Shown one piece after another: positions 21,382 to 55,500 of a DNA stretch of 64,000 bases. Origin of the DNA: Sphaerolaimus hirsutus (taxonomy: Eukaryota > Nematoda > Chromadorea > Monhysterida > Sphaerolaimidae); assembly GCA_964036195.1 (NCBI GenBank), contig OZ038460.1, positions 375,504 to 439,503 of the forward strand, in the 5' to 3' direction. The notes beneath the pieces are model-generated. The model saw only the letters and a program-made list of their open reading frames with translations, was not told the DNA's origin and made no database searches. The stretch's first letter is position 1. Each line of letters begins with the position of its first letter. A program made the translations under genes and the position numbers.

Positions 21382-24300
21382 CTTTGTGAGCATTTTTGTG
21401 ATTTTCAATGATTTCTGTGATTTTTTGTGCTAGTGGTTCCCAGTTCTTATTACTGGAGTGGCTGGCTATTGAATTAAGTAATGGACAGACAAAAAAAACT
21501 TATAAATACACAGTCAAATGAAAACCTTATGATCATCAGCATACAAAGGCAAAATTCCATAATAGGATGTTATCGCTCTGATTGTGCCATATCCCACAAC
21601 CCTTCCAGTTAGTTTGTTAATAGCACACAGAGATCTTCCAATTATTAGCCCAGCATCTGATAATTGATTATCTATCATCCATTTTTTGTTGAAGGCAGTT
21701 CTGTTCAGCAGATGCATTCTGGGGGCACTCCCAGACCCTGTAAAAGACCCTGTAAAGTGTCAAACACCCTGTAAAATGTTATGTGTCATGTATAAGACCC
21801 GGTAAAGTGTCAAATGTCATGTAAAAGATCCTGTAATGTGTCATGTGTATTTATTATTTTATCGTATCCAAATCTTATGTCAAAAAGTAAGATTTTGATA
21901 CAAGGATGTAAGATTTGACACGATAAATAAATATTTGGATACACTTTACATGAGTCTTTTACATTACATTTGACACTTTACAGGGTCTTTTACATGACAC
22001 ATGACATTTTACAAGGTCTTTGACACTTTACAAGGTCTTTTACAGGGTCTGGGAGTGGCACCTGATGTCATAGTTGCTGACTTCATGGAAGTTGTGTTCT
22101 GTCACTGTGCTGGTTTCTATCCTGCAAAGGCAGTGAGCAGGGCCCAGATTTCAGGAAGGTATTTACCGTATTTCTTCGATTTTATTGACCGTCAATGTAT
22201 TGTTTCATAAGCTCTTTTTGGGGGCAATGTAAACGAGCACGGCAAAGTGAATAAGCATGGCAATGTATATTTCAGAGTGTATTTTTCATGTGCATTTGTA
22301 AAGTAAATTTGAATGTAAATTTGTAAATGATATCTTCAATGTAAACACCACTGTGCATTCAGCACAAATTAGGTAAATTGTCACAGCGGTAGAGTTGTTT
22401 GACTCTTTAAGTGACAAGCATAAAGGGATAAATCGGATAATGTGACATCTATATTTTCATTCGCCAATGTATTTGAACATGGCAATGTATTTTTCGGATG
22501 CCCCACAGACCCGGCAAAGTAAACGAGCAAGCCAATGTGAATGAACACGTCAATAAAATCGAAGAAATACGGTATACTAGTGCTACGCAGTTCAAAATTT
22601 TATTGGGAAGACACCCTATGCAGCAAACCTGACTGTCATGCAAGCTGCCGTCCCACTGCCCAGTGGATCAAAATTTGGCAGATGTACTGGACCAAATTTA
22701 GTTTCATTTAAATTAGGTCAGGCCTTAAGCGCATGCATTGTGTGTCCGGTGTTGTGATGTGAAAAGTGCCAGCACTATGGCGCCAAGCGCCAAAAGCGCC
22801 ATAGCAAAATGACGCCAAGCGCCAGAAGCGCCATGGCGCATATATGGGCATGGCGCCACAGCACAATAGCGCCAAGCGCCAAAAGCGCCATAGCAAAATG
22901 ACGCCAAGCGCCAGAAGCGCCATGGCGCTTATATGGGCATGGCGCCACAGCAAAATAGCGCCAAGCGCCAAAAGCGCCATGGCGCTTTTTGCTCTGGCGC
23001 TAGTAAAATTCCAGATTCAATTCTCAACCAAAATCGTTTTTATAGATTTTTCATATATATTTACACATCTTAATTTGTCAGGCGTGTAGGTAGAGCATAG
23101 TTTACCCGCATTCTCCGAGAATAAACCTCTCCCCAGGTGTTACTCAATTAATATTGACAAATTTTAACCCAAAAAACCTGTCGTCTCTGTATCGGTCCCT
23201 AATAGCATCTATCACTGAGGGTACAATAAACCCATAGCAGCTCAACTTTTTGTCTAGCCAAGTGTCAAATTTGAACCGTTCGATGGAGTGTTTCGTCGCG
23301 GAGCCCATAAATTTTTTGAGGCTAAAGAAAAATAGGTTTGATATCCTTTGATCGCGATAATCTTTTCGCACGATTATTTGATAGCCCCAGGTGATGCCGG
23401 CAAATGATGAGATCATTTCGGAAGTGAAGCCCATTGATTGAGCTGCGCGGGGACTTGAACTGGTGCATTTTTTACATTTTGCGTGACATTTTACATTTTA
23501 CAGGTGTTTTACATGACTTATCATGACATTTGACATTTCATAAGATGTTTTATAGGGTCCGGGAACTATACGTAGGAGTGCCATTATAGGGGGGGCAACC
23601 AAAATTGTGTCTCTTCCCATTTCGTTGTACGTTGCCGTTCGGCTATATTGGGATTTGGGGTCGGGTCGGGGCTATATCTAAATTTTTGTGTTTTCTGAAA
23701 TAATCCCCACGTTCCGAGATAATGGGGTGTATAAGAATGCATTTTTTGCATAGCCAATATGGCCGACCAAATTTAAAGCTCCATACCTCGATTGAATTGA
23801 TATGGAGCGTTCAACGCTTAAAATGTACGGATTGCATTAGTATTGTAGGATTAACCGTGTCTAAATTCATTACCCCTACGACAACACACTTGGACGTTTT
23901 TACGACACCAAAAAAAACTACCTAATTTCACTTACATCCACAACCGACTTCTATTTTCTAACAGTCGAAAACAGGACCAAATTGCATCTTCAAACCCCCC
24001 AAAAACTCACCAACACTCCTGTCAATATTCAATCCGCAATTCAACGCGTTCATGGCGACCACGTCACCAGAACCGTTTTTGGCCAGCTGCCATAACATCG
24101 GCGAGGTGTTAAAGAACAATCTCTGGAGCCAATTCCTCAAGTGGGCAAGTGACAAGGAATGTGGTAAGTTGTGAATATACCTATATTGTGATTAAACTTG
24201 AAGTGGGAAGGAAAGTGACAAGAAAATTTTGACACAAGTTATGAGTAGTTTCATTTACAAATTTAGGTAATTGGCAATTTTAACCTTTACTTCCACTGAT

Positions 24301-24526
24301 CACTTAACTTACCACTTACCACTTGTTGTCACTTGTCCATTTGAGGAAATGGCACCAGGTTGTGCATGCCCACTTCAAAGTGTTCCGTTTCGCAAAGTTT
24401 CTCCACTGAGTACATGTCATCTGTTTGCAGCAAACGAACTGTTATTTGCTCCCCCCGTGGTAAAGTGACCACTTTTGGTTGAAATATTGGGTTATCTGAT
24501 ATTATTTTGCCTTGGTTTGGATCCAT
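21382..24526 (-). CDS. GNAT-family N-acetyltransferase, two-domain type
   Basis: Exons on the minus strand: 24526-24356, 24122-24011, 23442-23178, 22121-22062, 21718-21526, and a likely further exon about 21470-21382. Phases agree at every junction up to 21526 (0, 1, 2, 2). The first part reads LPRGEQITVRLLQTDDMYSV, then IIVRKDYRDQRISNLFF, which fits the acetyl-CoA binding motif (YR..G/R-type loop, here without the usual Gly). The second part has TGRVVGYGTIR and GILPLYADD, typical of nematode GNAT proteins with a second acetyltransferase-like domain. Introns 1 and 4 are exactly one introner element each. The frame stops at 21514 if exon 5 is read through. The 21382 exon (PLLNSIASHSS, NWEPLAQKITEI, donor AAAG|GTAAAT) looks real, but its join is unresolved. 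The start is uncertain; substrate unknown. Confidence 0.78.
21719..22061 (-). repeat. Introner: intron 4 of the GNAT gene
   Basis: On the gene strand the exon ends ACATCAG and the intron is GTGCCACTCCCAGACCC...GGGAGTGCCCC+CAG, 343 bases, phase 2. The element is flanked by CAG on both sides. Inside are facing 'tgtaaaagaccctgtaaag' arrays and a 'tttggatac/atccaaatctta' hairpin. Excision joins YDIR to MHLL in frame. Confidence 0.88.
22164..22574. repeat. TA-MITE, 'CTTCGATTTTATTG' variant, in GNAT intron 3
   Basis: Starts TACCGTATTTCTTCGAT and ends ATCGAAGAAATACGGTA. The interior differs from the C-rich copies: words such as 'ggcaatgtatatttcagag' repeat in both arms. Confidence 0.85.
22745..23015. 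repeat. GCGCC palindromic hAT-type element in GNAT intron 3
   Basis: The left end is close to GTGATGTGAAAAGTGCC. The body is repeats of 'gcgccaagcgccaaaagcgcc', with a 74-base unit present about twice (22790-22960). The right end is not clear. Confidence 0.65.
24123..24355 (-). repeat. Introner: intron 1 of the GNAT gene
   Basis: On the gene strand the exon ends AACCTG, and the intron is GTGCCATTTCCTCAAATGG...CAATTC then GGCTCCAG, 233 bases, phase 0. It belongs to the 'TTCCGCAAGTGG' subfamily; the flanking triplets are CTG and CAG. Excision joins GMHNL to RLFFN. Confidence 0.85.
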
Positions 24527-26902: not shown

Positions 26903-29900
26903 CTTCAAAATGCGCTCCAAGCGGCTGCCAGACAATTTTTCGGCTGGATGGAGCTAACTGTTATTGGGAAATCGCACGAGGGAAATGATATCCATTTGGT
27001 GAAGGTGCATTTGAAATTTCATTTTTTTAAATTTGAATTGAAAAGTTTGCTCTCGACGTTTTTAGTGGTGATGGAAAAGCGCCATAAAAAATCGTACCTG
27101 GGGGCAGTCCCAAGCCCTGTAAAGTGTAAAGTAAAGTATCAAATGTAAAGTCAAATGCAAAGTAAAGTGTCAATCAAAACAAAAAAGAAAAGATTTTATT
27201 ACTGAACTTTGCATGACAATTGACAGTTTACTTTGCATTTGACTTTACATTTGACACTTTACTTTACACTTTACAGGGCTTGGAATTGGCACCTGGGGGC
27301 ACTCCCAAAGCCCGTAAAAAGCCCTGTAAAATGTCAAATGTCATGCAAAGTGTCAAAAGTCATGGAAAATGTCCCGCAAAATGCAACTCGGTTGCACTTT
27401 TGCAGGGCATTTCCCATGACTTTTGACACTTTGCGTGACATTTGACCTTTTACAGGGCTTTTTACACGGTCTGGGATTAGCACCAACCAGGCGTTGATTG
27501 CTTCATGATGCTGGCGCTTTGTGGCGCCTAACAGCAGCAAAAAGAATTCGCATTAGGTATTTTGTTCAAAATGCATATTTACGTTTACCGTATTTCCTCG
27601 AAATACCCCCCTTGAAATACCCCCCCCTCGTTTGACCCCCCCCCCTCCCTCTCGAGACCACTATGAAGCAATCACCCCCCCCCTCGCAATACCCCCCCCC
27701 CAAATTGAGTGTAAAGAGAACGTACATGACAAATACGGCAGTTTATGTTCTGCGTAGTGCAGAACACACGTTAAAACAATGTCGGAATCACGTTAGAACA
27801 GTGTTTATACCATCTACGTACTAATATTAGTCTACAGAACCTTATAAATGGCAGTTTTTGTTGCATTTTTCGACGTCTGCGTACGTTTCAGACGACAATT
27901 TCGTACTTGGTTTTCAAAAATTTTCTTGTGAAATAATAACCCCCCCCCCCTCGTTTACCCCCCCCCCCTCTCGGGACCACTATGAAACAATCACCCCCCG
28001 GGGGGTATTTCGAGGAAATACGGTACGTCGATTTCAACGTCAGTGTCCATCTAACAATTCAGTATACAACCTCAATTTTAGAATTTTAGAATTTCATGAT
28101 TCTACAAAATGTCCAAAATTATATCTAAATACTTCTAGGTCAACTCAAAAAGCGTCAACTCAAACAGACGGGCAGTGTTCATCGAATGCGGCGCCCACGC
28201 GAGGGAGTGGCTAGCTCACGCTTCCTGCATGTATTTGTTGCACACTATGCTCACTGAACCTGACCACAGGGGTTGGTTGGAATGGGGGGATGTATTTTTA
28301 CTCAATTAGATAGCTTTTATGGTGGAAATTTTTTAGCAGCTTTCGAGCGTTGAGCCATTTGAAACTCGTAAAAGATGAACGTTTACCAGTTTCAGCAGTT
28401 TCTCAGTTCACTTTGGCAGAGAGCCAAAAGTCGAGTAGAAAATATGTTCGGATGTGTCTCGCCATGTGCTTTTGAGGTTCCATTAGAAATTTCAACATCC
28501 CAACATCTTCTACCTAGATAAGTACAGACAACATTCTATTCGGCATCCGGTGTTATGTATTAGGATACATCATAGTAGTTATTCGGATACGAATGACGTA
28601 AACGCGCCATGGCGCCAAGGTCTGGACAGGATATTTCTCACATAAGTAGTCACTTCAAAATTCAAACCTGAACACAAACCAATTTGCAGATGCGCACAAT
28701 ATTCTTCTGGACGCCGATGTTTACATGGTGCCCATGCTAAATCCTGACGGCTACAAATACACCTGGACAACTGTATGTTACACTGTAATTGCCAGTGTCG
28801 CGAAACTAATTACTGTAATTACTTTGTGTTTAGAAAAACGCCATTTTGATCGTTAGCAGAAATGGTGACATTTTTATCGTTGGTTTACGAAACTAACTTG
28901 TAAGTACTATCTTAAGAGAAAACTGCCTTTTGATACAAAGGTTTATAGCTACAGTTACAGTTGAAATTACCCAGGCATTTAAACAAAAAGTACTCCCAAT
29001 TCAGTTTCAGTATGCTACTTCTTTGCCAAATGGGCAACCAAGGAGATTCAACCAGAATGGGTATCCCTGGGTACAGAGTTGGAAAAACGTATTTACGTTT
29101 ACCCGAAATACCCGGTTATTCGGGTATTTATACTTACGTTTACGTTTACGTTTTCCAAAAATACCATTACGTTTTGTTACGTTTTCCTGACCAAAATACC
29201 CGGGTACTAGGGAAAACGTAAAAAAAACTTATGATCGTTCACACGTGCACATGGTCAAATGGGCCGCACCATCTGCAGCCAACAATATTCTAATGTTTTT
29301 GCATAAACTTAACATGTATACATACAAAAAAACGATGTATGAAAAAAGTGACTGCACGCGTCCACTTATACTCGGCGTACATGATACTCTGCCCTCGCAC
29401 TGATTTATGTCTCGTGTTGGAAGCGTGCCAATGATTGTTAAATCATGCGATTTCCATAAAAAGATGGAACAATTATCGATGTGAATCTGTTAATGAATCA
29501 CATTAGAGCAACAATCAATTTTGTCATCTTTTTATGAAACTCGCACGCGTTAACCATCGTTGGCACACTTCCAGCGGGAACCACGCGTGCAAGGTGTAAA
29601 GTAACCGGAGTATACACATGGAATACTGGGTCCATATTCATAAATGTGTTCAAATGCTGAACACAGAAACCTTTTTGTTTGTGGAGCCTTGTGTTTATAA
29701 ATTTTTGTGATGAATTCCAACGACGCCACTTGCAACAACTGTGAGTAGCATACGTTTTGAAACTGGCAGGGTGAGTGCAAGCTCTGGTGCCAATCCCAGA
29801 CTCTGTAGAATGCACTGTAAAATGTAAAATTTCATGCAAATGTCATAACTCATGTAAAATGCCCAGCATTATGGCAAAGTTTTGCCACCTTCCAGGACAT

Positions 29901-32900
29901 TTTTCATGACTTAGACACTTTGCATGCCATTTAACATTTTACAAGGCATTTTACAGGGTCTGGGACTCACCCAGAATCACCAACGTAGTTGGATTTGGCC
30001 GCACTTACAACAGAAAGTGGTGCGGAATGGAGCGATTGACCCATCTAAATGTGAAAATAATGGTGTTTTCCAAAGCACAATGGCAAATACCTACTGTGTG
30101 TAAAAATTTTACGTTTACGTTTTTTTTACGTATTCCTTGGTATTTTAAAAATACCTTACGTTTTAGTATTTATACTTTTGATTTGGAAAAGGTATTTACG
30201 TTTACGTTTACGTTTTCCAAAAATACCAGTATTTGCACAACTCTGCCTGGGTATTCATCTAAATGAAAAGTGTTTTGGTAACTCAAAGTAGAGCACATCA
30301 TCGCAAACTTCAACTTAAAAAAAACTACAAAAAACGCTCTTAGGACCGTTTATGGCGCAAAAACAGGGCGCCAAACAATTGCGCCAAAAGTGACGCCAAT
30401 TGCTGCAGAGGCGTGGACCTCAATCGAAATTTCGCCTATAAATGGAGCGCGGCAGGAGAATCAGGTGCCACTCCAAGACCCTGTAAAATGTCCTGTAAAA
30501 TGTCAAATGTCTGAAGAGTGCCAAATGTCATGTAAAATGCCCTGGAAAATGGAAACTCGGTTTCCATTTTGCAGGACATTTTCGATGACTTTTGACACTT
30601 TACATGACATTTTACATTTTACAGTGCATTATACAGGTCTGGTAGTGCCTCCAGATCTGTCTCCGTGCAATGTGCTATATGCTGGCACTGGGCCAATGAG
30701 TGAGCCTGAAGTAAGGGCGCTGGGAAATGTATTGGAGACATTGAAGGGCAGAGTTAGGTGGGTTGTGGTGTGTGAATTGGGATTTTTGGATTTTTTTGAA
30801 CAGTTTTTGATGTTAGTTAAGCCGAGATTAGTGCTCAGCGTGAATTTGACGTAAAATGATGACGTAAAATTACGTCTTAAAGTTTATAAAATGAATGTGG
30901 ATGATGCTACAGGCCTACAATTTGTTGTGGATAATATATGAATCAATACCTCAATCGTGTCCGATAATGAGTGTTATCAGCCACAGCTAGAGCGAATTGA
31001 AAAATTCAATTTTTTACATTTTACGTCAGGGAACAAAGTTTATAAAATGTGAACTTTGTTTCCTGACGTAAAATGAAAAAAATTGAATTTTTCAATTCGT
31101 TCTAGCTGTAGCTGATAACACTCAGTATCTGACACAATTGAGATATTGATTAATATATTATCCATAAACAATTGTAGACCTGTATACTCGGCGAACATGA
31201 TACTCTGCCCTCGCACTGATTTATGTCTCGTGTTGGAAGCGTGCCAATGATTGTTAAATCATGCGATTTCCATAAAACGATGGAACAATTATCGATGTGA
31301 ATCCGTTAATGAAAAACATTAGAGCAACAATCAATTTTGTCATCGTTTTATGAAACTCGCACGTGTTAACCATCGTTGGCACACTTCCAGCGGGAACCAC
31401 GCGTGCAAGGTGTAAAGTAACCGGAGTATAGTATCATCCACACTCATGTAATTAATTTTACGACGTAATTTTACGTCATCATTTTAAGTCAATATCACGC
31501 TGAGCTCTAATCTCAGCTTAAAAGGTGCTAGGAAATGGGAATAGTATTGTTTTTCAACTGTTGTTCAAAGCGCGTTTACTTTTTTAGTCTAAAAATATGT
31601 AAAATAGGTATAACTCGGGCGACATCACAGCCTACATTTTTCCGGAGGAAACACTCCATCATGACGTCATACCGCAGTGAACTGCGGCTGACTGAACCGC
31701 ACTGCGGCCATGGAATAAATCGATGGTGGCATTTTGGGGGGGAGGGGTCTCCAGACTTTCGTCTCGTCCCATTCCAGCGTACATTGGCCGATTTTGATGC
31801 CTTTCGAGTATGTTGGGGTTTGGCGGCGGGGCTACGACTAAAATACCTCGAATAATCCCCCAGTCCCGAGATAAGGGTGCTCTATAAAAACATGGTCATT
31901 TTGCATGGCCGATCAGGCCAATTGACTTGGGAGCTCAGTAACTGTATTTAACCATTTCTGGGCCAATTTAGACCGTTGAACACTAAAAATGATCGGTGTA
32001 AGCTGTAGATTCCATTTTTGGGGTCGCGTCAGTGATGTCTATATTTCTTATGCCGATTTGACCTGGTTTTCAAACGCGAAAAGTAAATTGGTCTGAACAT
32101 GCTATCGTATACTTGAGACTGTGAGAAGTCGTATACCAAAATAATGAGTTCAATATCTCTTTCCAATCAAAAGTGATAGCACTTCAAACTTTTTCCTCCC
32201 ATCCACATAAATCACTGCATGAAGCCAGATGCACGCTACTTCAAAAGTCCATAGCTCGACCATTTCTTGGCCGATTTTCCTCAATGAACACTTAAAATGA
32301 TCAGAAAAACCTGAAGATTTGATTTTGATCATCAGTTTATTGAGATATTCAATCAGATTTCCCATACAATAAAACAACGTAAATTCTTGTGTGTAATTAT
32401 TATGATGATATAATATATAGATGAAATGACAATGAAAGTGAAATCTTCAGGTTTTTCTGATCATTTCAAGTGTTCATTGAGGAAAATCGGCCGAGAAATG
32501 GTCGAGCTATGGACTTTTGAAGTAGCGTGCATCTGGCTTCATGCAGTGATTTATGTGGATAGGAGGAAAAAGTTTGAAGTGTTGAATTTGAACTTTTGAT
32601 TGGAAAGAGATATTGAACTCATTCTTTTGGTATATGACTTCTCACAGTCTCAAGTAGACGATAGCATGTTCAGAAAAATATACTTTTCGCGTTTAAAAAC
32701 CGGGTCAAATCGGCATAAGAAATATAGACATCACTAACGCGACCCCAAAAATGGAATCTACAGCTTACACCGATCATTTTAAGTGTTCAACAGTCTAAAT
32801 CGGCCCAGAAATGGTTAAATACAGTTACTGAGCTCCCAAGTCAATTGGCCTGATCGGCCATGCAAAATGACCATGTTTTTTAGACCGCCCTTATCTTGGG

Positions 32901-34548
32901 ACTGGGGGATTATTCCTGGAATTTTAGTCATAGCCCCGCCCCCAAACCCCAACATACTAGAACGGCATCAAAATCGGCCAATGTACGCTGGAATGGGACG
33001 AGACGAAAGTCTGGAGACCCCCCCCCCTGAAATGCCACCTCCGATTTATTCTATGACTGTGGCCCTTCCAGGTGGCAATCCCAAGCCCTGTAAAGTGTCA
33101 ATTCAAAGCAAATTCAAATGTCAAATGTAAAGTAAAGTGTCAATTGTGTATCCAAATCTTATTTTTCATATCCAAATCTTATGTTTTGTATCGAAATCTT
33201 ATTTCAAAAATAAGATTTGGATACAAAAAACACAAGATTTGGATACACAAAATTGTGTATCCAAATCTTATTTTTTGTATCCAAATCTTATTTTTCGTAT
33301 CCAAATCTTATATTTTTCATATCCAAATCTTTTTTTGAAAAATAAGTTTTGGATACAAAAACATAAGATTTGGATACACAAAACTGTGTAGCCAAATCTT
33401 ATTTTTCATATCCAAATCTTTTTTCAAAAAATAAGATTTGGATACAAAAACATAAGATTTGGATACACAAAAATACGATTTGGATACACAATTGACACTT
33501 TACATAACATTTGACACCTAACTTTGCATTTGACTTTATATTTGACACTTCACTTTACTTTTGACATTTGACTTTGCATTTGACTTTACGTTTGACACTT
33601 TACTTTACACTTTACAGGGCATGCCCCCAGGACGCATGACGCCCTGTCTCTGGCGGATATTTCATCACGTTGTTTCATAAGTTTTTGGCTGGCTGTCTGC
33701 CAGCGGAAGACATAACTCGTATCTGTTTGTACAGTATCGTGTCTGCCGAGTATATATTTGAACACTGAGTATATTGTATCGAATTTCAAGCCCCAACCCT
33801 CCAGCCTCTACATAGCCGTGCATTGCTTCGGGCAAATGGTCATAATGCCCTACGGATTTTCGCGAGACATCAAACCGCGCTACTACAATTGGCTGAAACA
33901 CGTGGGCAAACTTGGCGCCAACGCCATGACTGGAAGATACAAAACAGTTAGAAGATATTACTTGGTCAATGCGATTAATCCGATTTTCCCAGGTGCGGTA
34001 GTTTTTGTGGGGCTGATTGAAGGGGACTGGGTTGGAATGGCGCCATTTGAAGGCGCCAAAGGGCGCCGCGTCATTGGCGCTTGGTGCCCTTTTTCTGTGG
34101 CGTCAGTGGCGCATGGCGTCCTATTTCTGAATAATGCCATAGCGCCCCTGGACCCTGGCCCACTTGGTCTACTTTTCTTGGCGCTTTTCCAACACCAGAA
34201 GGACGTCGCATTCTTTTTAAATATTCTCATTTTATCAAACTTTCCTAGTTTTTATTTGTAACTGTTGAAAGAAGTTTGGAAAGAAGAAGTACAACAAACA
34301 CCCAACCCCATCACTAACCCCCCCCCCCCTCAGACCCAAAGTCGGGCAGCAGCGTGGACTGGGTGTCCGGTTCCCTGTCCATCCCGTTCACCTACCTGAT
34401 CGAGTTGCGCCCCGCCGGCGTGTACACCACCGCCGGGTTCGTCGAGCCCGGCACAGAGGTGCCCTTGGCTGGCGAGGAACTCTTTGCCGGGCTGGGAGCC
34501 ATGTGGCAGGGTGTGAAACAGAGTAGTGTGCTGGGCAGGGGGAGGTGA
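26903..34548 (+). CDS. Metallocarboxypeptidase, M14A (carboxypeptidase A/B type)
   Basis: Seven exons: about 26903-27004 (5' edge uncertain), 28139-28271, 28690-28772, 30344-30464, 30655-30757, 33805-33992, 34334-34548; phases 0,1,0,1,2,1 all agree. The protein is a Zn-dependent exopeptidase that removes C-terminal residues, probably secreted. Motifs in order: IGKSHEGNDI; zinc ligands HAREW; VPMLNPDGYKYTWTT; DRLWRKNR; GVDLNRNF; NVLYAGTGPMSEPEVRAL; the third ligand in AVHCFGQ; SVDW; catalytic Glu in YLIELR. Val just before the DW suggests A-type (hydrophobic) specificity. The residue at the place of the flexible Tyr248 reads as Asp (FPDPKSGSSVDW), an oddity that rests on the exon 6/7 join. Signal peptide and propeptide exons upstream were not found. 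Intron 4 is an introner; the other introns are full of nested transposons. Confidence 0.92.
27099..27486 (-). repeat. Two adjacent introner-family copies in carboxypeptidase intron 1
   Basis: The first copy (about 27099-27293) starts GGGGGCAGTCCCAAGCCCTG after CTG and ends AATTGGCAC before CTG. The second (about 27296-27483) starts GGGGGCACTCCC and ends GGGATTAGCAC. Both have their GT end on the minus strand, antisense to the host gene, so they cannot splice as introns of it. They sit back to back at the shared CTG. Confidence 0.82.
27586..28025. repeat. TA-MITE in carboxypeptidase intron 1
   Basis: TACCGTATTTCCTCGAAATA...TTTCGAGGAAATACGGTA. Its right half is nearly identical to bases 1-373 of the window. 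Confidence 0.88.
29074..30245. mobile_element. Composite CAGAG-family hAT element in carboxypeptidase intron 3
   Basis: Ends CAGAGTTGGAAAAACG...TTTGCACAACTCTG, with an exact 8-base duplication CCTGGGTA on both sides (29066-29073, 30246-30253). It is 1172 bases because other elements are nested in it: a TATACTC MITE (29367-29614) and an introner-family copy (29787-29974, GTGCCAATCCCAG...CTCACCCAG). Near the ends are 'ttacgtttacgttttccaaa' words of the family. Confidence 0.9.
29367..29614. repeat. TATACTC-terminal MITE nested in the hAT element
   Basis: TATACTCGGCGTACATGATA...GTAACCGGAGTATA. Almost the same as the copy at 31183-31430, including 'gatttatgtctcgtgttgga'. Confidence 0.85.
30465..30654 (+). 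repeat. Introner: intron 4 of the carboxypeptidase
   Basis: The exon ends GAATCAG, and the intron is GTGCCACTCCAAGACCCTG...GGTCTGGTAGTGCCT+CCAG, 190 bases, phase 1. CAG lies on both sides. The interior is a hairpin of 'aaaatgtcaaatgtc' and 'gacattttacattttacag' words. Excision joins WSAAGES to DLSPCNV, which matches the spacing of M14 enzymes between the LNRNF..W and PC...YAG motifs. This is the clearest case, because the protein family fixes what the spliced product should be. Confidence 0.95.
30819..31520. repeat. Palindrome in carboxypeptidase intron 5, split by a MITE
   Basis: The arms 'gattagtgctcagcgtgaat' and its complement near 31500 flank inner arms around 'aattgaaaaattcaattttt'. 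A TATACTC MITE (31183-31430) sits near the middle. No coding sequence. Confidence 0.8.
31700..33064. repeat. 1.36-kb palindromic element in carboxypeptidase intron 5
   Basis: The left arm with 'ggtctccagactttcgtctc' is matched by the complement at about 33000-33020. The arms continue through 'ggagctcagtaactgtattt' and 'cagatgcacgctacttcaaa' and meet near 32380. A diverged single arm of the same type lies around 23570-23830. Confidence 0.85.
33072..33630 (+). repeat. Introner-family copy in carboxypeptidase intron 5, with TTTGGATAC hairpins
   Basis: Starts GTGGCAATCCCAAGCCCTG after CAG and ends GGGCATGCCCC+CAG, 559 bases, sense to the gene. It therefore has a complete GT...CAG set but lies inside a larger intron, 174 bases before exon 6. 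The middle (33150-33490) is an array of 'atccaaatctta' and 'taagatttggatac' words in opposite orientation. Confidence 0.85.
34030..34200. repeat. GCGCC palindromic element in carboxypeptidase intron 6
   Basis: 'ggttggaatggcgccatttg' at the left and 'ggcgcttttccaacacc' at the right, with GGCGC words between. It makes up about half of the 341-base intron 33993-34333. A long C run (34319-34329) precedes the acceptor. Confidence 0.65.
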
Positions 34549-35040
34549 TTTGATGGGGGTTGTTTGAGCGGGTGGAAAAGTGACGAAAAAAGTGGTGAGT
34601 GGTAGGTAAAGTGATTAGAGGTGAGTAGTAAAAAAGAAATTAAATAAATATCAGTAAATTTGTATGTGACTAGTATTTACTTTACAAATGTGATTGACAG
34701 ATGAATTATCACTTCACTATCTCTGACTACATTTCTTGTCACTACTCTATATCCTAAAATACTTATGTCCTATTTTGTTCTAGATTCTGCACATTATCCA
34801 TTCGTGTACATATTTGCAAAATAATTTCATCAATGATTGAATGCATTTAGTTTTGCTAGTTATTTTTCAATTTAAATACCTACATTATTGTCTTTCGTCT
34901 TTCGATAACATTTGTACATTTGTCTTTCGATTACTGTCGAATTCTGTTCGATTCTGTCGAATTTACGGTACCCGCATCGACATTCACAGCTCCATCGCAA
35001 AATAAACTAACACTTAAAATACCTGAAAAACACCCGCAAC

Positions 35041-36551: not shown

Positions 36552-36894
36552 GTGGCAGTCCTGAGCCCTGTAAAGTGAACAGTAAAGTGTCTAATGTAAA
36601 GTAAAATGCAAAGTAAACTGTCAATTGTCATTCTCGGTGTCAAATGTAAAGTGTCAATTGTGTATCCAAATGTTTATTTTTGTATCCAAATCTTATTCCA
36701 AATCATAACGTAAGATTTCGATACAAAAACATAAGATTTGGATATAGAATTGACACTTTACTTCACATTTGACATGATATTTGACACTTTACATGGCAAT
36801 TGACAATTTACTTTACACTTTACTTTACATTTGACAGTTTGCATGACAATTGACACTTTACATAATGTTTTACAGGGCTTGGGACTGCCCCCTG
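36552..36894 (+). repeat. Introner-family copy
   Basis: Starts GTGGCAGTCCTGAGCCCTG after CTG and ends GGGACTGCCCC before CTG: a 3-bp CTG duplication. A 'tttggatac' hairpin lies inside. With CTG instead of CAG it has no 3' AG, and no gene is apparent around it. Confidence 0.85.
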
Positions 36895-37837: not shown

Positions 37838-38007
37838 GTTGCGATCCCGCACCCTGTAATGTGGCATGTTAAAGTGTCAAATGTCATGTAAAATGTCATA
37901 TAATTTTGTCAAATGTCATGCAAAATGTCAAAAGTTCAGTAATTAAAGCCTTTCGTTTTCTTTTGACACTTGACCTTACACTTCACAGGGTGCGGGACTG
38001 CGCCCAG
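37838..38007 (+). repeat. Introner-family copy with complete splice signals
   Basis: Starts GTTGCGATCCCGCACCCTG after CAG and ends GTGCGGGACTGCGCC+CAG. 170 bases, CAG on both sides. It would make a GT...AG intron if transcribed on the plus strand, but I see no exon on either side. Confidence 0.8.
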
Positions 38008-40917: not shown

Positions 40918-43900
40918 ATGAGTCAGCGCCGCAAGCAGAGAAGCATCTTTACGAGTGCGTGGGAGTTTTTCACCGACATTTCACTTTTTTATATTTCAAA
41001 TTTTCCCCAAAAAACCCACCTCTGAAACTTCAAAACCCCTCGCAGAAATCGACGAACTAGCCTGCGGGCTGCGCCAAGCCAAAGTTCAACAACTGCAGCG
41101 GCAAGACACGCCGCCCGACCCGCGGCCGCACGCCGCCGCGCTGCACGAATCGCAGTCGAATGGCCCTTCAATTGTGACGCCGGTGCCTTTGCTCGGCTCC
41201 AATTCACCACCCGGTGACGCCGTCACTGGCGCCGGCGCCACGGACTCTGGCGCCAGCGCCATGCATTTGAGGATGACCGCGGCGGCCAATTTGCAGGCGT
41301 ACTTTGAGTGCGCCATGGCGCTGGCGCTCGCGCAACAGCAGCAGCAGCTGGCTGCAGCGCAGGTTGGATTATTTTTGAGTGTTTTTTTGTGCACACTATT
41401 AAGTGAAATCTCTGGTTTCTTATTCACATGGAATATGGTTGTGGACTGTAACACAATTGTGGCCTAAACCTCAAATTGAGTTCATGGAACATTGCACCCA
41501 TTCCACCATTCCAAAATCCACCCGAAACCCTCAGGCGACCACATCAATACCATCCCCGATCAAACCGACGCCAATCTCCACCTCCAGCAGCTCAACATCG
41601 ACACTTTTCCCCAGCCCCCTATTCAACCCGTTCGCCGCGCCGCAGCAACTTCTCGCCGCCGCTGCGGCTGCAGTCGCGGCGGCGGGAAATCGACCGGCCG
41701 CCGCGCCGCCGCTGCAAGTTCCTGCAGTCAGCGGCGCGCCGGCAGATGGACACATGCAGATGTTGGCCGCTTTTGCTGGAGCTGGGTGGGTGGATGGGGG
41801 TTTGGGGGGTTTGGGGTGGGATTTGGGGGTCAGGGGCGGTTGCAGAGCCTGTAAATGTCAAATAACATGCAAAGTGTAAAAAGTCATGTAAAATGCCCTG
41901 GAAAATGGCAAACATAGGCATGGCATGACATTTGACATTTTCAGGGTATTTTACAGGGTCTGGAACCGCCCCCAGGTACGAAATTGTAATAAAATGGCCA
42001 AATTGGCGACAATAAGGGCGATAGATAATTTTCAATCCGCTCACCCGAGCGATGCCATTTTTCGCGATTTTGGCTTAACTTTATGCGATAAATCCGCTAC
42101 CGGGTTATTATCCAAATCGTGATGAATATTTATTTGAATTTTTCCTAACACCGTTCCATTTCTGGCATCATCCAAATCAATTATCTCTACTCAGTAAAAT
42201 ATTTCGGTAGCATCGAGTTCACGACGAAATTTTTTATCTATCCATGCAACTCAGATCACTAAAACACCGCACCATCTAAGTCGTTAAAAGTTTAAAAAAC
42301 TTGAAAATGTCAATTACCCCCCCCCCCCCCCGCAGCCGGCGCCCAATACCATCGAGCACCACTCTATTCCATTCGCCGCCCACATCGACGGCATACGCGC
42401 ACCAGTTGACAAAAACGACTCGCCAGCAGCAATTGTCGGGCAACTCGGCCGCTGGCACCGCGCCAAGATTCCAGTGCACCGACTGCAGCCGGTCTTACAG
42501 CACGTTCAGTGGATTGTCAAAGCATAGGCAGTTCCATTGCGGCGCCCATAATAAGTTAGTGCGGTGAATTAGTTTTATCGGGGAAGGTAAAAATGGTTGG
42601 CAGTATCGATGGGAAATATCCATAGTCGTTTTAAAACGTACCGTATTTCCTCGAAATACCCCCCCCCTCGAAATACCCCCCCTCAAAATGGGCACCATGG
42701 ATTTGTGGTCCAGGAAATGCATAACAGACGTTCAAAACACTTACTGTGTTACGTTAGAACATCGTTTCTACCATCTACATCCTTATATAAGGCTGTAAAA
42801 ACTTAAAAATGGTGGTGATTGTTGCATTTTTAACGTTTTTCTCCCAAAATTCTCACTCTGAAACAATAAACCCCCGGGGGGTATTTCGAGGAAATACGGT
42901 ATTTACTTTATAGTAAAACGAGTAAATACGTTTACGTTTCATACGAAAAACGTTTCTGTACTCGCTCTTACGTATACTTTTGGAAAGTACGCGAGTACAG
43001 AAAACGTATTTCAGATAATCTTTTATATTGATTTTTAAGGCATACAAGGAAAAAAAACGAAAGTGCATGCTAAAAAATAGGCGAAAATAGCCTAAAATTC
43101 ATATAAAATTCAAAATTCATACACCTTTCTGGCCAAAAATTTGTTGAAAATAGGCAAAAATTCTGAAAATTAGTGATTGTAAGTGAAAATTGTGGGACAT
43201 TTCTCAAAAATACCCACGTTCACATTTTCCTGGGAAAAGTACGTTTACTCATGCGTAAAAGTAAAAAGTTACTTTACGTTTTCTGTACTCAGTAGTTTTC
43301 TTTTCAGTTGACGTGTCGCAGAACGACGTTCCAGTAAAAAGTTTTACGATCTTGAAAGTTTTATTGCAGCATGGAAATTTGGAAATCGTTCCGCGAAACG
43401 TCAACTACATTCTGAATTTACAACAAAACTAGTTGACACTGATGACGCTACTGCACCGGCAGTGTATAACTTGAATTTTCAGCATTACAGTGAATTGGGG
43501 TACTGTAACACTTTTTACAATGTGCTGTCCAATTAGCATTGAAAAATGGGTTACCTATTTGTAAAAAATATAATTAAAAATAATCTCAGAAAATCCTTCA
43601 AAAAGAAAATGGGTACAAAGGTAGCTATAATTAAATATCTCGAAAGAAACGCAGCGAAAATATAAAATATATACCTAGGTATCAATGAGATATTTTTCAT
43701 ATATTCTCCTCGTAAAATTACATTAAATCTCTCTGGACAAAATAAAATAAAATTAAAATAAAAATGAAAAAAATACAAATAAACATAAAATGTTTTAAAA
43801 AAATAACTATCCCTTGATTTTTTTCCACTCCCAATCCAACCAGTCCAACAACCACCCAAATACAACCCCCCCCCCCCCGCACAGACGCGCGTTCAGCTGC

Positions 43901-44644: not shown

Positions 44645-46719
44645 GATTGTGATTTTTGGATCAGGGGCTGGATTTGATTGAATGTGTTTAGGGTGCAAGT
44701 AGGGCGCCCGGCATCAGAGTGGGTGTATGATAGTGAATTGGGCAGTGAAATACGTTATTAGTCAGTGTGATCTAGGGATATTTATATACCAGAGGCCACT
44801 CCCAGACCCCGTTTAATACTCTGAAAAAGTCATGTAAAATAGTTTGAAAAATGTCAAATGTCATGCAAAGTGTCAAATGTCATGTAAAGTCTGGGAGTGA
44901 CACCTGCGGTCAATTTCGCCAACTTTCGCCATTTCGGTCAACAACCTGTCCACTTACGGAATTGGCGCCAGATTAAAAGTGTCTACCGTATTTCCTCGAA
45001 ATACCCCCAGGGGGTTTATCTTTTCCGAGTCTGATTTTTGAGGGGGGGGGGTTAAACCAGGGGGGTATATCGAGGAAATACGGTAATTGGCCCGAGGAAT
45101 TTTTACCATAAATTTCACTATTAGGTTTTTTAACGTATAAATGGTATACGCTACCTGACCTGATTTATTAGCAGACTCAACGTGTGGGGCTAATTACAGT
45201 ATTTATTATTTGTCTTTATTTTTTGCAAATATGCAGCGCTTTATTTTTTATTTGCAAGGAATTTGAATATATTTTCGCCATACGTTTTGATTCTCAGTGT
45301 ACTGCTCTTTGTCAGTATTTATCTGGACAAATTTTATCCATGACATTACTTTTTAGGTATTTATATAGGTACCTAGGTATAATGTTGTGTGACGGTACAA
45401 TCAGCCATTTTGTTGTTGTTTTAGGACAATATTTACCTAGGAAAATTTGAGGACCATACTAGCAAGTGAGACGTTTTCCTCCAAATGAATTTCTATTGAT
45501 ATTAGTTATTTATTTCATTCATATATATCTCATTGAAATCATACCTAGGTATGTACCTAGCGATGCATTTGCAGCATGCAAAATATTTACTATTTTACGT
45601 TGTTTTCGACATCACTTTTTGCCTTCTTACATTATTAATGATTAAAATTTATTTGTGCTAAAAGCACTACACTTGTTTACGACACCAGTGCTTTATTAAT
45701 ACATTTATTTGTCCTTCATATTGGACCATGCCTTTCACGTCGTTTAATTTTTTTGTCACACCATTTTTGCCAGCTTAATTATTTTCGCCATTTTATTTTC
45801 TCGTCCGAGTTTCGGCTGTTATAATGTCGAATTTGATGAAAGCAAAAAAATTGAGAGCGGAAGTATATTATGGTAATCTGAACAATGAAATAAATAACCA
45901 AATGCAGCTGTCGCGCATCCGTTCCGAACGGAATTAGCGTCAATATTTTTGCGGCAAAACGCCCCGCCGCTTCATAAATAAATATGTATATCCCGATTTT
46001 TGACGCGTTTCCGACCACCCGCGAAAATTTCGCGATGCCGACGGCCCGAAATTTGACAAATGGCATTTTCGCGTCGATGCGGCAATTTTTTTTTGAAGGG
46101 TGCTGCGCAATTTTTAGCACTTGAATTTATTTCAAACTGGCGGTGCCTAACCGGAAGGAGGGTTCACTTTGACACGGATATTTTCCGCGTCAATTGTTGC
46201 TTAATGAAGGCGAAATAAAAAACCAACTAAATATTTGAAGTGTGCAGAGTTGAGCTTTTTTCAGCGAACCTAAAAGATGCATAAACTGTCGTTTTAATCT
46301 ACCGTATTTTCTTGACTGAGCCCCCAGAGGATTTGACCCGGGAAAAACAGCAAAAAAACAATCAAATGGAAATGGACCAATAGTTCACGCATATGAAACG
46401 GCGCGACACATTTGAAACGTTTCAGTGCCCAATAAACTTGAAACATGAAAATGAAAAATATTATCATTTTCCTTGAAGTATTGCCATACAATTTTGGAGT
46501 TCATTTGGATCACTGCCAACTGTGCATTTGACGCGGCGCACGTTTAATAAAGTATCGCGTGTAGGGCTTCATTGGACTGTTTCATTGCAGAATTGTATAG
46601 CAATGAACCACTCATGTTTACTTAAAACGTCAAATTAATTAAAACATGCAATCCCAGTGTCCAAATTTTGAGGAGCCTTCCCTTTCAGAAGCTAAGCTAA
46701 TTCATTTCTGTTTTTAAAG

Positions 46720-48059: not shown

Positions 48060-48397
48060 TAGTGATGTGAAAAGCGCCAGAACTTTCGCGCCAAGCGCCA
48101 AAAGCGCCATGGCGCTTTTCCGTCGCGTAGCGCCAAGCGCCAATGTCGCCTGAGCAAAATGGCGCCAAACGCCAGAAGCGCCATGGCGCTTTTTGCTCTG
48201 GCGCTAGCGCCAAGCGCCAGCGCCAGGCATTTTGTTCCTGGCGCCGGTCAAAAATAGCGCCATGGCGCTTTTCATGGGCATAGCGCCAAGCGCCAATGGC
48301 GCCACAGCAAAATAGCGCCAAGCGCCAACAGCGCCATGGCGCTTTTTGCTTTGGCGCTAGCGCCAGACGCCAGCGCCATGGCGCTTTTACATCACTA
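48060..48397. mobile_element. TAGTGATG-ended hAT-type palindromic element with perfect 8-bp duplication
   Basis: TAGTGATGTGAAAAGCGCC...GGCGCTTTTACATCACTA, flanked by CTGAGGAC on both sides (48052-48059, 48398-48405). The whole body is made of GCGCC-type palindromic words, which would fold into many small hairpins. It gives the superfamily (hAT) for the GCGCC elements all over the window. Confidence 0.92.
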
Positions 48398-49544
48398 CTG
48401 AGGACACGTAGAGGAAGTAAATATTATATTTATTTACCTAACTGAGAAAAACAGGAAATTGTAGAATCCAAACTTAATTTACCGACTGTAGAAGGACCAT
48501 AGAATAATTATTAATGACAGCCACAAAAAATATAGAATAAACATGAAATATGTTGCCCCAGTGTTGCGAATCGAATCTTTTCCATTTTTAGAACATCATT
48601 CAAATAGTAAAAAACCCGAGATTTAATTTGATTAAAAATAGTTTGATGATTATGAAAAGAACAATTCTTTCAATTCTTCAATAAAATCGAAGGCATTATA
48701 ACAAATTTACAATTTATCTCGTTATAAAATTCAAGGAATTATGGAAGGAAAAACAGATAATATTTCTCCCTGTGAAAACGCAACGATATTCTTTGGCTCA
48801 TACATCAGGCGTGCTGGCGCAGGTAAATGATTTTTTAAATTCGGCAAATTTTGCAAAGGTATAATAACTATTTAATTCACAATTTTGTGACGTGACTTTA
48901 TATACCTACGTATGAAGGTAATAGGTATTTATTTACTGGTTTAAGCGGGACCGTCAGAATTTGTGACATGGATGGAACGAAGGCTTTTAGACGCTAATTC
49001 AAACCGACTGTAAGTGCAAAATTTAAGAATGTTACCTATGTAAATTTCTATCTGGTGCCAGTACTGCACCCTGTAAAAGATCATGTAATATTTAGAATGC
49101 CATGTAGGTGTGTAAAATTCCATGTAAAATGTCATGTATGATTTAGAATGCAATGTGAAGTGTAAAATGCACTGTAATATTTATTTACAATCGACAAAAA
49201 GTAAAATTTCGTGACAATTTACATGACATTTTAATTTTTACATGACGTTTTACAGGGTAGGAGTTGGGAACTGTGCTCTCATAGCTGAGATGCTGAGACG
49301 ACTCGGCGGACAGCACACCTAGTATGAAAACCTACCGTAATTTAATGAATAAAATCTTGTGATAAATTTCGTAATTAATTATTCCATAGTAAAAAACGAA
49401 ACATTATGGTGAAAAACTGTTAAATTTTTGGTTCATTATTCAGATGGGTTACGGTAGGTTTTCATACTAAGTGTGATGTTCGCCGAGTATAACCCCTGTC
49501 AAATATTCATTCCGCTCTGGTATATAAATTCACTTGACTCCCAG

Positions 49545-52500
49545 GCATCTCCCTGTCACTGAGCACTTGTACAATTGGCACAAATATAATCCTAGCCATA
49601 ACTTTGGCCAAATGCAGAACACTCGACCAGTCCACCAGAATTTGCCTAGTGAACATGGCCATATCAGGTACCAGATGCAATTACCGTATTACCTCGAATT
49701 ATCCCCCCCTTGAATTAACCCTCCCTCGAAATACCCCCCTAAATTTCGGCTGAGGAAATAATACCCCCCCCCCCCTCGAAATACCCCCCGCCCTCAAATT
49801 GAGTGTAACGTGAACGTACATGACAAATACCGCAGTTTGTGATCTGTACAATGCAGAACACACGTTAAAACTGATGATTAAGTGACGTTAGGGAAGGGTT
49901 TTTGTGTATATACAGTAATATCTGCCAATAAACACATATAAATCTATGTGATTTTTAGATTTTTCTACGTCTGCGTATGGGGAATTTCCGATAATTTCTA
50001 GCGAAATAATAGACCCCCCTCGAATAAACCCCCCCTCGAATTATCCCCCCCTCAAATTTTGCTGGCGAAAAAATAAACCCCCTGGGGGTATTTCGATGTA
50101 ATACGGTAGAATGTACAACTGTGTTCACATGCTTACCATGTGATGACAAAAATGACAAGTTTTCGACTATTTTTCATTGTGAAAATTCAGCATTTGAATT
50201 ACCGCATTTCCTCGCAATACCGTTCTTTTTCTCACCAGCAAATTTTGAGGGGGAGGGGGTTTATTCAAGGGGGCTCATTTGAGGGAACTTCATTATTATG
50301 CACGAAATTCCACATGCTCAGATGTAGCAAAACTCAACGATGACAAATAAGTATTAGCATTTGTAGATATGTACACTGCCACACCCTGTAAAATGTCAAA
50401 TGTCATTTCAGGCATTGTGTACTGCAGCGTCAACTCACTGCGACAAATACATGAGATTGTAGTCGCGTATGTCATGGGAAGACCTTGTGATGTTATGGCT
50501 AGTTGTTGCGCTTTGAATTGAGCTGTCTACTTGTAAAAGTCGATAAGTCCAAATTTCCAACAATTAAGTCCAGAAACGCCATCTAGATCTGATCCTACCA
50601 ATATTTCATGATTTTTCCAATGTGACTTCGGGGGGACTTATTCAAGCAGTCACTTCTTTTACGTCAAAGTATGGAAAGCAATCAAGACTTCTATTTCACA
50701 CAGATGCAACGTAGCACCTGCGCACTGTTACAATGGCTGCACACTGGCTCCTATGTAGCCTTCATTATGGGCCTGGCACTGATCGCTATAGACAGGTGCC
50801 ACTCCCAGACCCTGTACAAGACCCTGTAAAGTGTAAAAGACCCTGTAATATGTCAAGTGAAAAGACACTGCAACGTGCAAAAGACCCTGTAAAATGTCAT
50901 GTGTTATGTAAAATACCCTGTAAAATGTCATGTGTCATGCGAAATACGATGTGAAGATTTGGATACAAAAACAACATTTGGATATGATAAAATAATATTT
51001 GGATACGATCAAAAAATATTTGGATACGATAAAATAATATTTGGATACGATCAAATAATATTTGGATACGATCAAATAATATTTGGATACGATCAAATAA
51101 TATTTGGATACATAGGACACTTTACAGGGTCTTTTACACAACACATGACATTTTACAGTGTCTTTTACACTTTGCAGGGTCTTTTACATGACACATGACA
51201 TTTTACAGGGTCTTTTACACTTAGAGGGTCTTCTACAGGGTCTGGGAGTGCCCCCAGGGGACATTTTACGTGGAAATTCGACAGCATCGCAAGTGGGCCG
51301 TACACCCAGCCGCAGATATTGACCGAGTTGAGGGACATGAAAGGCATGGGGAAGTGCAGCAGGTTTTGGTGCATCGGTATGTGCATACGATCGAATATTT
51401 AGCGTGTACATGCAAGAAATAGTGGCTCTAAGCACACTAGAATGTGGCCTAAACTTCGCAAACAGATACATCAACATCTGGGGTTTTGTAGATTTGGACC
51501 CCCGCGGGGGTTCATATAGATAGCAAATCGCTCCTCCGAAGGGATAGATAGCTGAAAAATTTTCTGGGGGGGTTGGGGGGGGGGTTTGGGGGATCAAAAA
51601 CGGAGGTCAAAAACGATACATCCTGGTCAATTCAAATGTGTTTTCGCATTTACCCGTTTCCGGAAATTCAGCAGTAAACTAGCATGTTAATAGTGCCACA
51701 TTAGACACAAATGAGGCTATCAGTGAACACTGAGCAGTGATCCTACAAGCGCCAAAACGAATGATGTAAAAGCGCCATAGGGTTGGCGCTGGCGCCAATT
51801 GAAAAAACGCAATGGCACTTTTATCGCTTGGCGACATATTCCTGTGGCGCCATCAGTGCCTGGCGCTGAGATTCAGAAGAGTTGGCGCTTTTTACATTAT
51901 TCGCCAAGTCCCTGAGGCCAGGGGCCAGATTTAATTCTCCCTACAGATTTGTAGGGTAGGGCGTACGCCCGATAGATTTTTATAAGCTCAGCCGCATCGA
52001 CGCACATGCACCGAGAGCAAGGCGGTTTGTAAAATATACGAAACCATCCCTTAACGGCGCCGATATTGCAATATGACGTAAATATATCGCTTCGATTTTG
52101 GCCCGGAAATCACTATTTCGTCATTTCTTGGCCGTCTGCCAATTCGCTTTTTATTTTATTTTGTCGGGCGGGTTACTCGCATAAGTCGCGCTTTTGTACG
52201 CTCGTGCATGCATTTCTTTCTTGTCGCTGCCCTCATGGTTTCGGTTGCAGACAGTGAACACTAAAAAAGTGACCACCTGACTACACAAAAGCGCGAATTA
52301 TGCGAGTAACCCGCCCGACAAAATAAAATAAAAAGCGAATTGGCAGACGGCCAAGAAATGACGAAATCATGATTTCCGTGCCAAAATCGAAGTGATATAA
52401 ACTGGTGGCAAATATAAATGGGAAATCAGGTACCTCATTTTTCATAACTATCTCACAGGAAAACGTGCAGCCCAATATGGCTGCCATTTGATGTGGGGCT

Positions 52501-55500
52501 GCCCACAACATTTGCCTACATATATGCCAAGTGGTACCCCCTGGCACCCCCCTGTTCTGCTGCTACAGATTGATGAATGTTTTTTTCCAATTTTTTTCCC
52601 GGCAAATATAAATGGGAATTTTCAAAAAAACACAAAATACAGCTGCAGTAAAGTGCACAGCCGATTTTTTTGTGTGCTGCCAACACAAGCAATGAATGCA
52701 CTTGTGTTGGGTTCTTTTCAAATAAAATAAAAGTTACTTATAGCTTTCCCACAGCCATATTTTGACTGCTGGTAAGTTGGGAGTATAATTTGGTCCCTGG
52801 TCCACTCACACCCACAAAACTTGCCCTCAGCAAGCAGGCATGGACCACAAAAACATGACAACAATGATTTTAAACTTTGTGATTATCAAAATTGTAGTTG
52901 TGATTGAAAAACTGTGATTTTCAATTTTCTGGGCATGACCTCTTCATTTGTTTATCCCAGTCACACTAGATACAGGGCACATTGCCCATTGGCCCCTATA
53001 GGTTTTTATCAAATAATTAGTGTCCACATTGGATGGGCACAAGTATTTTGTCATTTGTGTCAAGACACTGCAGGCGTCAGACATGCTGTCAGGCGAGTGC
53101 CCCCTCTACGCAGGGCCATTTTTATCATTGGCTATAAAAAATACTTTAATGCAAAAATGGAGCCCAGGAGCAGCCATATGTTGCCCCTGAAACCAAACAA
53201 GCCAATTCTGGCCCCCATGTGCTCCATGAATAGCTTAGGATAGTGGATTGTTCACTTTTTCAAACCTACGTTTTTCTTCAAAAAAATTTCATGTTTGATC
53301 AACAACGCCACCATTGTGTGGGGCTTCTGGGGGTTCTGACTGGGTAGAAAAGTTGCACATGATTACAATCTACCAATGTCAAAAAAACTTTTTGGTCTCA
53401 AATGTCCAGAAAAAAATTTATCAATAATTTTTGTTTCATCAGGAACAAAAATTTGTATGGAAGTTCCATTTACATTTGCCAGAAAAAAACATGAAAAAAA
53501 ATTTTTCTGCATCAAGGGTGGCTTGAGGGGGGTGTCCCCTAGGTTATATATAGTAAATACTTGGGGGCACCCTCACACAAGATGAAAGCCTAACAGCTTG
53601 CATGTGGGATTTGTAAAATACAATTAAGTGATTTTCCCGTTTATATTTTCCACCAGTTTACGTCATATTGATATCGGCTACCTAAAGGGATGGTTTCGTA
53701 TATTTTACAAACCGCTTTGCTCTCGGTGCATGTGCGTCGATGCGGCTGAACTTAAAAAAATCTATCGGGCGTACGCCCTACCCTACAAATCTGTAGGGAG
53801 AATTAAATCTGGCCCCAGGCGCTATGACGCTTTTTAAAGGCCTAGCGTCGAGCGCCAATGGCGCCATAGAGAAACGGCGCCAAGCGCCAGTCTTTGGTGA
53901 GCCGAAATATAGCTCAGCGATTTTACACTACTATTCACGAGTCCACCATTTACCCATTTGAGTACCTACGCCGTTATATTTCACATTTAAAGGAATTTAT
54001 CACATCACAAAACTTTCAGTATCGCCCTGGCTTATATCCACAGTGATCGTCAGTCACAGATACATCTACTACGCATTGTTGGCACCTGAGCTCGGTTCAG
54101 AAATTCTGACATTTTGCAGTAATTCACAGATCACTGGGTACCCAGGTGGCAGTCCCGCACGCTGTTAAGTGTAAAGTAAAGTGTCAAATGTTGTACAAAT
54201 TTGTCAAATTTCATTTCACACAAAATGTGAAATGCTCAGAGATGAACCGCTTCCGTTTTGCATTTTAATCGAGATTTTACTTGACATTTGACACTTTACA
54301 TCACTTTACAGGGTGCGGGACTGCCCCAGGAATAGATAGGTCACTTACACTGGCAGTGTTACTGATTGTGGTCGCATGTCTACTCGGCTACCCGGTGATT
54401 TTGTGGAGAAATGTACGCTTTCGGAACCAGTTCCATCAAAAGTCAGTTGGTCACGTTTTGTATTCATAACTCTATGCGAATTTGTCGCATACCAAACTTT
54501 TTGCCCCCCCCCTCCAAACAAAGTAGTGACTAGTAAGGACTCCTCACTGAGGAGAGTATCGTAAATGCATAATACAGGGGTTAATGCATGCAAAGCTAAT
54601 CATGCGTACATAATCATAATTGATGTCCGTAAAGAATAAAGAACTTTGACTGGAGCCTTGGAATTTCTATGGGGCCGATTTTAGTTGTAGTTGTTTTTGC
54701 GGTCTGTTTGAAATTTTGTATAATCACCTAAAATACCTACTAGGCAGTTTTTACAATGATAATTCAGAATACTGCGAAACCGGACCGAAGGTTCCGAGGA
54801 AAAGCCTGCTAGTTCTTCTAAATATAGTCGCATTTTGACCAGTCAGTATCAACACACATTTCCAACTGCCCTCTTCAGACCCCAATCACTCATACTACGT
54901 TTGAATCTCAAAAGGAGTCTATCATCGACCAGAGCTTTGTTGTGGGCATCTATTCTGCACGGATCAATGTCTGCCATAACACTGATATTGTATCGGTATA
55001 GTATGGAACTGGGACCAGGTAATGATGGGAAACAAAATGGCCAAAGATTTTTTTTGTCTTTTTTTTTGGGGGGGGGGGTTCCAACATAGAAAAAACTGTA
55101 AAACGATTCGAAAATTATGGTCCTTTTTTGGCATTTTCAGGTGAAAATGAATGCACTTTAAATGTAAGTAATGAAAAACAAGTGATGTTCTCGATGGCGA
55201 ATACAGAAAAATGTGAAAACGTGTCTGCGGCGACACTTTGGGAGCCGTCAAAAAATTACGACGTACAAAGTAGCCCAAAAAATACGAAAACAGAATTTCG
55301 GGAAATTTTCATGGAAACTTCCGAAAAATTCGAAAATTCGAAAAATATTTTCGGGGAAAATTTCGTGAAAATGCACTCTGACTAGCATTCACCCAATCCC
55401 TTTCGCGTAGGTCAACACGGTATTTATGCACACTTTCCAATATTTTTGGATATCGTCGCACAAACCTCCCCATTGGTAATTCCAATTGTGATAATATCAT

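Follow-up and report, generated by a model that had tools for sequence, protein, structure and literature searches.

Transposons that become introns on insertion are called introners; they were reportedly treated by Huff et al. in 2016, and Henriet et al. are said to have found, in 2019, introns derived from miniature inverted-repeat transposable elements (MITEs) in the tunicate Fritillaria borealis. Here we analyse a 64,000-nucleotide stretch of contig OZ038460.1 of Sphaerolaimus hirsutus (positions 375,504 to 439,503, hereafter the window), in which five introns of three genes each consist of one foldback element with the appearance of an introner.

According to the main text of a recent survey (PMC9860276), 27,563 introner introns occur in 175 of 3,325 genomes, and among animals in two groups only; the terms 'nematod', 'Harbinger' and 'PIF' are absent from that text. 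It also describes a class of introners (in Chrysochromulina) whose members bring a 5´ splice site with them and borrow the 3´ site from the target site duplication (TSD), so that the class of mechanism considered below is already known. A duplicated CWG target (CAG or CTG) defines NuwaI, a group of the PHIS (PIF/Harbinger-like) superfamily whose terminal inverted repeats (TIRs) usually begin with GGG. In its accessible part, the paper on this superfamily (PMC4482050) reports NuwaI from 16 animal genomes (12 bony fishes, a beetle, a crustacean, a mollusc and an anthozoan), no nematode being among them. Nematode intron gain and loss is the subject of another paper (PMC9169325), whose accessible part considers reasons why the sequences that gave rise to gained introns have escaped identification.

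We estimate at roughly 85% the probability that the five introns are introners, namely non-autonomous foldback MITEs which a CWG-targeting transposase would have put into coding exons and which the spliceosome would remove. The three host genes (a GNAT-like gene, an M14 carboxypeptidase gene and a seven-transmembrane (7TM) receptor gene) were rebuilt exon by exon and the element-introns were read in the sequence. On the sense strand, all five start with GTGCCA or GTGGCA and end with CAG, exactly at the coordinates given in a preliminary description of this DNA. The ends of the element coincide with both splice sites in every case, with no residual sequence to the left or right; the final triplet of the upstream exon is the first flanking triplet, and the final triplet of the intron is the second. 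Four of these introns, distributed over the three genes, are whole single copies of one main family and the fifth belongs to another. Together they represent 5 of the 17 introns modelled (4 in the GNAT-like gene, 5 in the carboxypeptidase gene and 8 in the receptor gene). Some intron numbers had to be corrected: the two receptor introns are the fourth and sixth of eight, not the third and fifth, and the carboxypeptidase intron is the third of the five modelled, not the fourth.

These arrangements suggest how the introns may have arisen. A transposase with a CWG target would insert the element at a CAG and duplicate that CAG, which for a sense insertion gives the layout exon-CAG/GTGSCA...TGCCCC-CAG/exon. 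The left end of the element, directly after the first CAG, would carry the donor GTGCCA or GTGGCA, and the right end (TGCCCC and its variants) would lead into the second CAG, whose AG would act as acceptor. Excision from the GT through the second CAG would restore the original mRNA; as the element supplies the GT and the duplicated CAG the 3´ AG, the length of the message would not change. The idea of proto-splice sites is an old concept, and insertions at CAGs fit it, as does the one within an arginine codon, where receptor intron 50796-51257 interrupts an Asp-Arg motif (GAC AG/G).

The host proteins rejoin in frame at all five junctions and in all three phases, as had been claimed. This alone is little proof, because any insertion with target duplication rejoins once it is removed, and what carries the argument is the intactness of the genes together with the GT-AG ends, not the frame. 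Retention of a single element-intron would bring 24 (24123), 12 (21719), 10 (30465), 3 (50796) or 6 (54146) stop codons into the message. Of the GT/AG pairs that lie at most 40 nt from the ends and leave the entire frame open, just one, that formed by the element ends, is shared by all five introns; its being open at all is due to the target duplication. Several inner pairs likewise leave an individual gene open, such as +18/-18 in the carboxypeptidase gene and in receptor intron 54146-54329, but none of them is shared by all five. In two element-introns, shifted pairs leave the length of the message unchanged as well, and for single introns reading frame alone cannot decide against such alternatives. 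For the carboxypeptidase gene, use of such pairs would introduce extra residues at a place where the alignment to carboxypeptidase O (PDB 5mrv), running through the element junction GES/DLSPC, shows just a one-residue gap.

Homology confirms the predicted identity of just one host gene, the carboxypeptidase gene (match to Pfam PF00246 at E=3.3e-64), whose product keeps the motifs HAREW, NRNF and IELR. If this enzyme works, the element copy at 30465-30654 with its 10 stop codons must leave the message. Among the best 120 of 2332 homologues, to which all motif counts refer, the three with the highest scores come from arthropods (38-42% identity), and two, from C. briggsae and C. elegans, share C-x(5-10)-CC-x-G-(V/T/A)-D-x-NRN with the window protein. 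This cysteine motif points to a nematode host, which we consider probable; the arthropod scores speak against too simple a reading. A second motif, E-L/M-R/V-P, was discarded as not nematode-specific, being present in eight of them, including an anthozoan and a rotifer.

The serious alternative, although an improbable one, is that we are looking at ordinary, unspliced MITE insertions in exons of dying or dead genes, whose frame is restored by removal of the duplication. Frame rejoining is expected of any such insertion and two of the three host genes are without a recognisable homologue. However, the spliced exons of the three models (263, 280 and 363 codons) contain no stop in spite of the divergence among the element copies, the carboxypeptidase motifs are intact, and the GNAT-like and receptor genes remain open with two insertions each.

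Several observations weigh against the introner interpretation. Protein searches found no homologue at E<=0.001 for either the GNAT-like protein or the receptor, so that these two models are founded on open reading frames and on splice sites picked by eye, their ordinary introns having likewise been assigned GT-AG ends by eye. The donor GTGCCA fits the usual consensus poorly past position +3, and the 5´ exon of intron 24123-24355 ends in CTG, not CAG. An autonomous NuwaI partner would be expected to encode a DDE transposase and a Myb/SANT protein; no transposase domain was found in 10 further stretches tested against Pfam. As to the family labels of the two genes, the receptor matches 7tm_1 at E=0.0054, under the Pfam cut-off. 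The GNAT-like protein has a sub-threshold match to Acetyltransf_18 (E=0.14 over its full length, E=0.024 for a C-terminal piece joined by hand) and no Pfam match in its N-terminal half. A sub-threshold Pfam match of the whole protein to another family (E=0.015) was set aside, and its PDB matches (E 1.8 and 2.3) were discarded.

The main family comprises 17 two-ended copies in the window, linked by BLAST, or 18 if intron 24123-24355 is counted with them. Thirteen of the main-family copies are not recognised introns, and flanks of the same CWG type are found among them, which bears out the earlier view of a mobile family with more than a dozen relatives outside exons. The 18 copies measure 111-556 bp and occupy 6.6% of the window, and every one folds better than its shuffles (z from -4.5 to -26.4). 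They look like MITEs in each respect: they are short, have TIRs and a TSD, form a strong foldback and are without coding capacity. The nine pairs in which the alignment covers 80% or more of the longer copy are 64-82% identical; the insertions therefore need not be young, and a recent gain of the introns is something we infer. Taken with the homology across the carboxypeptidase junction and the identity of splice sites with element ends, the relatives outside exons support the introner reading of the preliminary description, in which the splicing itself would be expected to occur in the cell. At 27101-27483 (-), two copies stand in tandem with one CAG between them, as though one copy had landed at the duplicated target of its neighbour.

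Three copies (29787, 33072 and 49055) are nested in larger introns, with extra intron sequence on both sides. It could accordingly be proposed that the elements of the five introns also landed in older introns, which they now fill through decay or sliding; since no leftover sequence is present in the five cases and five exact coincidences are very unlikely, we give this explanation very little credence. Receptor intron 49668-50411 has its 3´ splice site, TCATTTCAG, about 40 nt inside an apparent fragment of the family (50370-50411).

The claim that all five introns belong to one family holds for four of them (21719, 30465, 50796 and 54146). Intron 24123-24355 gave no BLAST match to any of the 17 other copies, and its membership was rejected; besides its own inverted repeat, its single match in the window is one of 49 bp (82%) at 34573-34621, which is all that speaks for mobility of this second family. 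It resembles the main family solely in its GTGCCA terminus, its foldback (z=-6.5) and its CWG-type flanks (CTG/CAG). It thus appears that two unrelated families possess the same kind of splice-making ends.

With a terminus consensus blind to the flank, 32 termini were found, including a chance match at 16126 in the Gypsy open reading frame (counted as a miss), and CAG or CTG directly precedes 24 of them (background 0.0265, p about 1e-31). Without the seven listed termini of the four main-family introns the proportion is 18 of 25. Identical CWG triplets are present on both sides of 8 of the 18 two-ended copies; the remaining copies have CAG/CTG mixtures or a triplet that is changed or decayed. 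The terminus pattern had no exact match in viral_contigs or genome_contigs, collections not expected to hold animals and whose search may omit records that lie very near the window.

Left ends start with GTG in 16 of 18 copies, and right ends, read inwards, with GGG in 10 of 18. GT stands at the left-labelled end of 12 of the 13 non-intron copies of the main family, orientation having been chosen by us in favour of GT at the left, and at both ends in at most one copy of 18. These two counts indicate that the donor travels with the element. Selection for an RNA hairpin was considered and rejected: the left-to-right strand folds better in nine copies and does not in the other nine, and we therefore take the foldback to be a property of DNA. 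When the five element-introns are folded alone, their first 2-4 bases are unpaired and the two termini differ; with flanking exon added (two introns tested), the base of the hairpin re-pairs partly. Exposure of the splice donor at the hairpin base is a suggestion only. The elements also have an inner terminal motif, CTGTAAA, which together with the reverse complement, TTTACAG (e.g. 22039-22045 and 21738-21744 (-)), resembles a further donor and acceptor; the two could serve as such in either orientation, in which case about 36 nt would stay behind in the mRNA.

The least credible explanation is the mechanism put forward for introner-like elements of fungi, in which introns spread through reverse splicing at the RNA level instead of by DNA transposition, for although the elements seem to be spliced as units, they have terminal inverted repeats and CWG flanks, where the fungal type is characterised by the absence of both TIRs and TSDs, and their copies lie beyond recognised exons on both strands.

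Element-introns, host genes and other copies of the main family in the window. Flanks are given as left/right; element copies not marked otherwise belong to the main family.
Feature	Coordinates (strand)	Description
Intron 1, GNAT-like gene	24123..24355 (-)	foldback element 24126-24355 (second, unrelated family) + CAG; flanks CTG/CAG; phase 0
Intron 4, GNAT-like gene	21719..22061 (-)	element 21722-22061 + TSD CAG; phase 2
Carboxypeptidase intron	30465..30654 (+)	element 30465-30651 + TSD CAG; phase 1
7TM receptor intron (4th in model)	50796..51257 (+)	element 50796-51254 + TSD CAG; phase 2; within Arg codon of Asp-Arg
7TM receptor intron (6th in model)	54146..54329 (+)	element 54146-54326 + TSD CAG; phase 1
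GNAT-like gene (partial)	21517..24496 (-)	exons 24496-24356, 24122-24011, 23442-23169, 22121-22062, 21718-21517; 263 codons, 4 introns
M14 carboxypeptidase gene (3´ part, N-terminus missing)	28139..34549 (+)	exons 28139-28271, 28690-28772, 30344-30464, 30655-30757, 33805-33992, 34334-34549; 280 codons, 5 introns
7TM receptor gene	48741..55629 (+)	9 exons, 8 introns, 363 aa
Family copy	3718..3895 (+)	CAG/CTG; not a recognised intron
Family copy	17232..17464 (-)	CTG at left; right end degenerate
Family copy	19104..19304 (+)	TTG/CTG
Family copy	27101..27292 (-)	CAG/CAG; adjoins 27296..27483 through common CAG
Family copy	27296..27483 (-)	TTG/CAG
Family copy	29787..29970 (+)	nested in ordinary carboxypeptidase intron 28773-30343; right end uncertain
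Family copy	33072..33627 (+)	CAG/CAG; nested in carboxypeptidase intron 30758-33804
Family copy	36552..36891 (+)	CTG/CTG
Family copy	37838..38004 (+)	CAG/CAG
Family copy	41833..41972 (+)	GGGG at either end
Family copy	44793..44903 (-)	CAG/CTG
Family copy	49055..49269 (+)	nested in receptor intron 48823-49544; right end uncertain
Family copy	57528..57679 (-)	left CAG, right CGC

Other features of the window include an open frame of 2051 aa at 10976-17131 (-), encoding a polyprotein of a Gypsy-type long terminal repeat retrotransposon with reverse transcriptase, RNase H and integrase domains (Pfam). A C2H2 zinc-finger gene (zf-C2H2) has exons at 41000-44650 (+), its last fingers being what we take to be Snail/Scratch-like, and family copy 41833-41972 is situated between apparent exons of this gene. 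Two further repeats were recognised by eye. One is a TACCGTATTTCCTCGAAATACCCCCC-like foldback with poly-C/G tracts in several copies (e.g. 27587-28025, 46728-47143, 49683-50109 and 39661-40088), and the other consists of repeated GCGCCAAGCGCC/ATGGCGCTTTT units and has ends resembling GTGATGGAAAAGCGCC (e.g. 22770-23010, 48060-48400, 56510-56680 and 62370-62625). The window gave no Rfam match at gathering thresholds, and no tRNA with bacterial settings.

In a wider sense, a nematode CWG transposase whose target includes the proto-splice CAG would make exons ready landing sites, exploited by two unrelated MITE families with a GT end, and could be the missing source of nematode introns at genome scale; we hold the chances of this to be about even. 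A single window suffices to read off the source, its target word and the two splice sites. If our interpretation is true, such elements would supply new introns directly, in a group of animals for which a source of this kind has been missing. Confirmation of the CWG target would tie the target preference of a transposase to proto-splice sites and make intron gain in animals directly testable, even by a transposition assay.

Intron gain via miniature transposons in an animal is the feature shared with F. borealis, whose introns are said to be of MITE origin. The two differ in their splice sites: all five introns of the window are GT-AG, whereas in F. borealis the share of canonical introns is the smallest reported and AG-A(N) ends prevail among the non-canonical ones, according to the accessible text of PMC7789003. 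As described in the same text, introner elements of Amoebophrya were defined mostly among non-canonical introns; they resemble those of the window in their short direct repeats at the exon borders and in inverted repeats through which these borders could be drawn together in a hairpin. No family-specific inverted repeat motifs were detected there, while the termini and target of the window elements are nearly constant.

Introners as such are known; the host phylum (a probable nematode) and the transposon group look new. The literature searched, much of it by title only and with subscription papers mostly outside its reach, yielded no report of nematode introners or of introners from a CWG-targeting (NuwaI) transposon. 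As far as the accessible texts go, two further described systems stand close. A NuwaI-type transposase may stand behind the elements, judging from the 3-bp CWG duplication (seen in the identical triplets and in the flanks of the termini). Of the termini, the right one begins with the GGG of NuwaI TIRs in 10 of 18 copies, and the left one reads GTG; the foldback, which extends through most of the element, is a difference from NuwaI. With the Chrysochromulina class they share the nature of a non-autonomous DNA transposon, a 5´ splice site of their own and a 3´ site derived from the TSD. In that class the TSDs are of 4 bp and TIRs are absent, whereas the elements described here combine 3-bp CWG flanks, a long foldback and a PIF/Harbinger-like signature with a probable nematode host.

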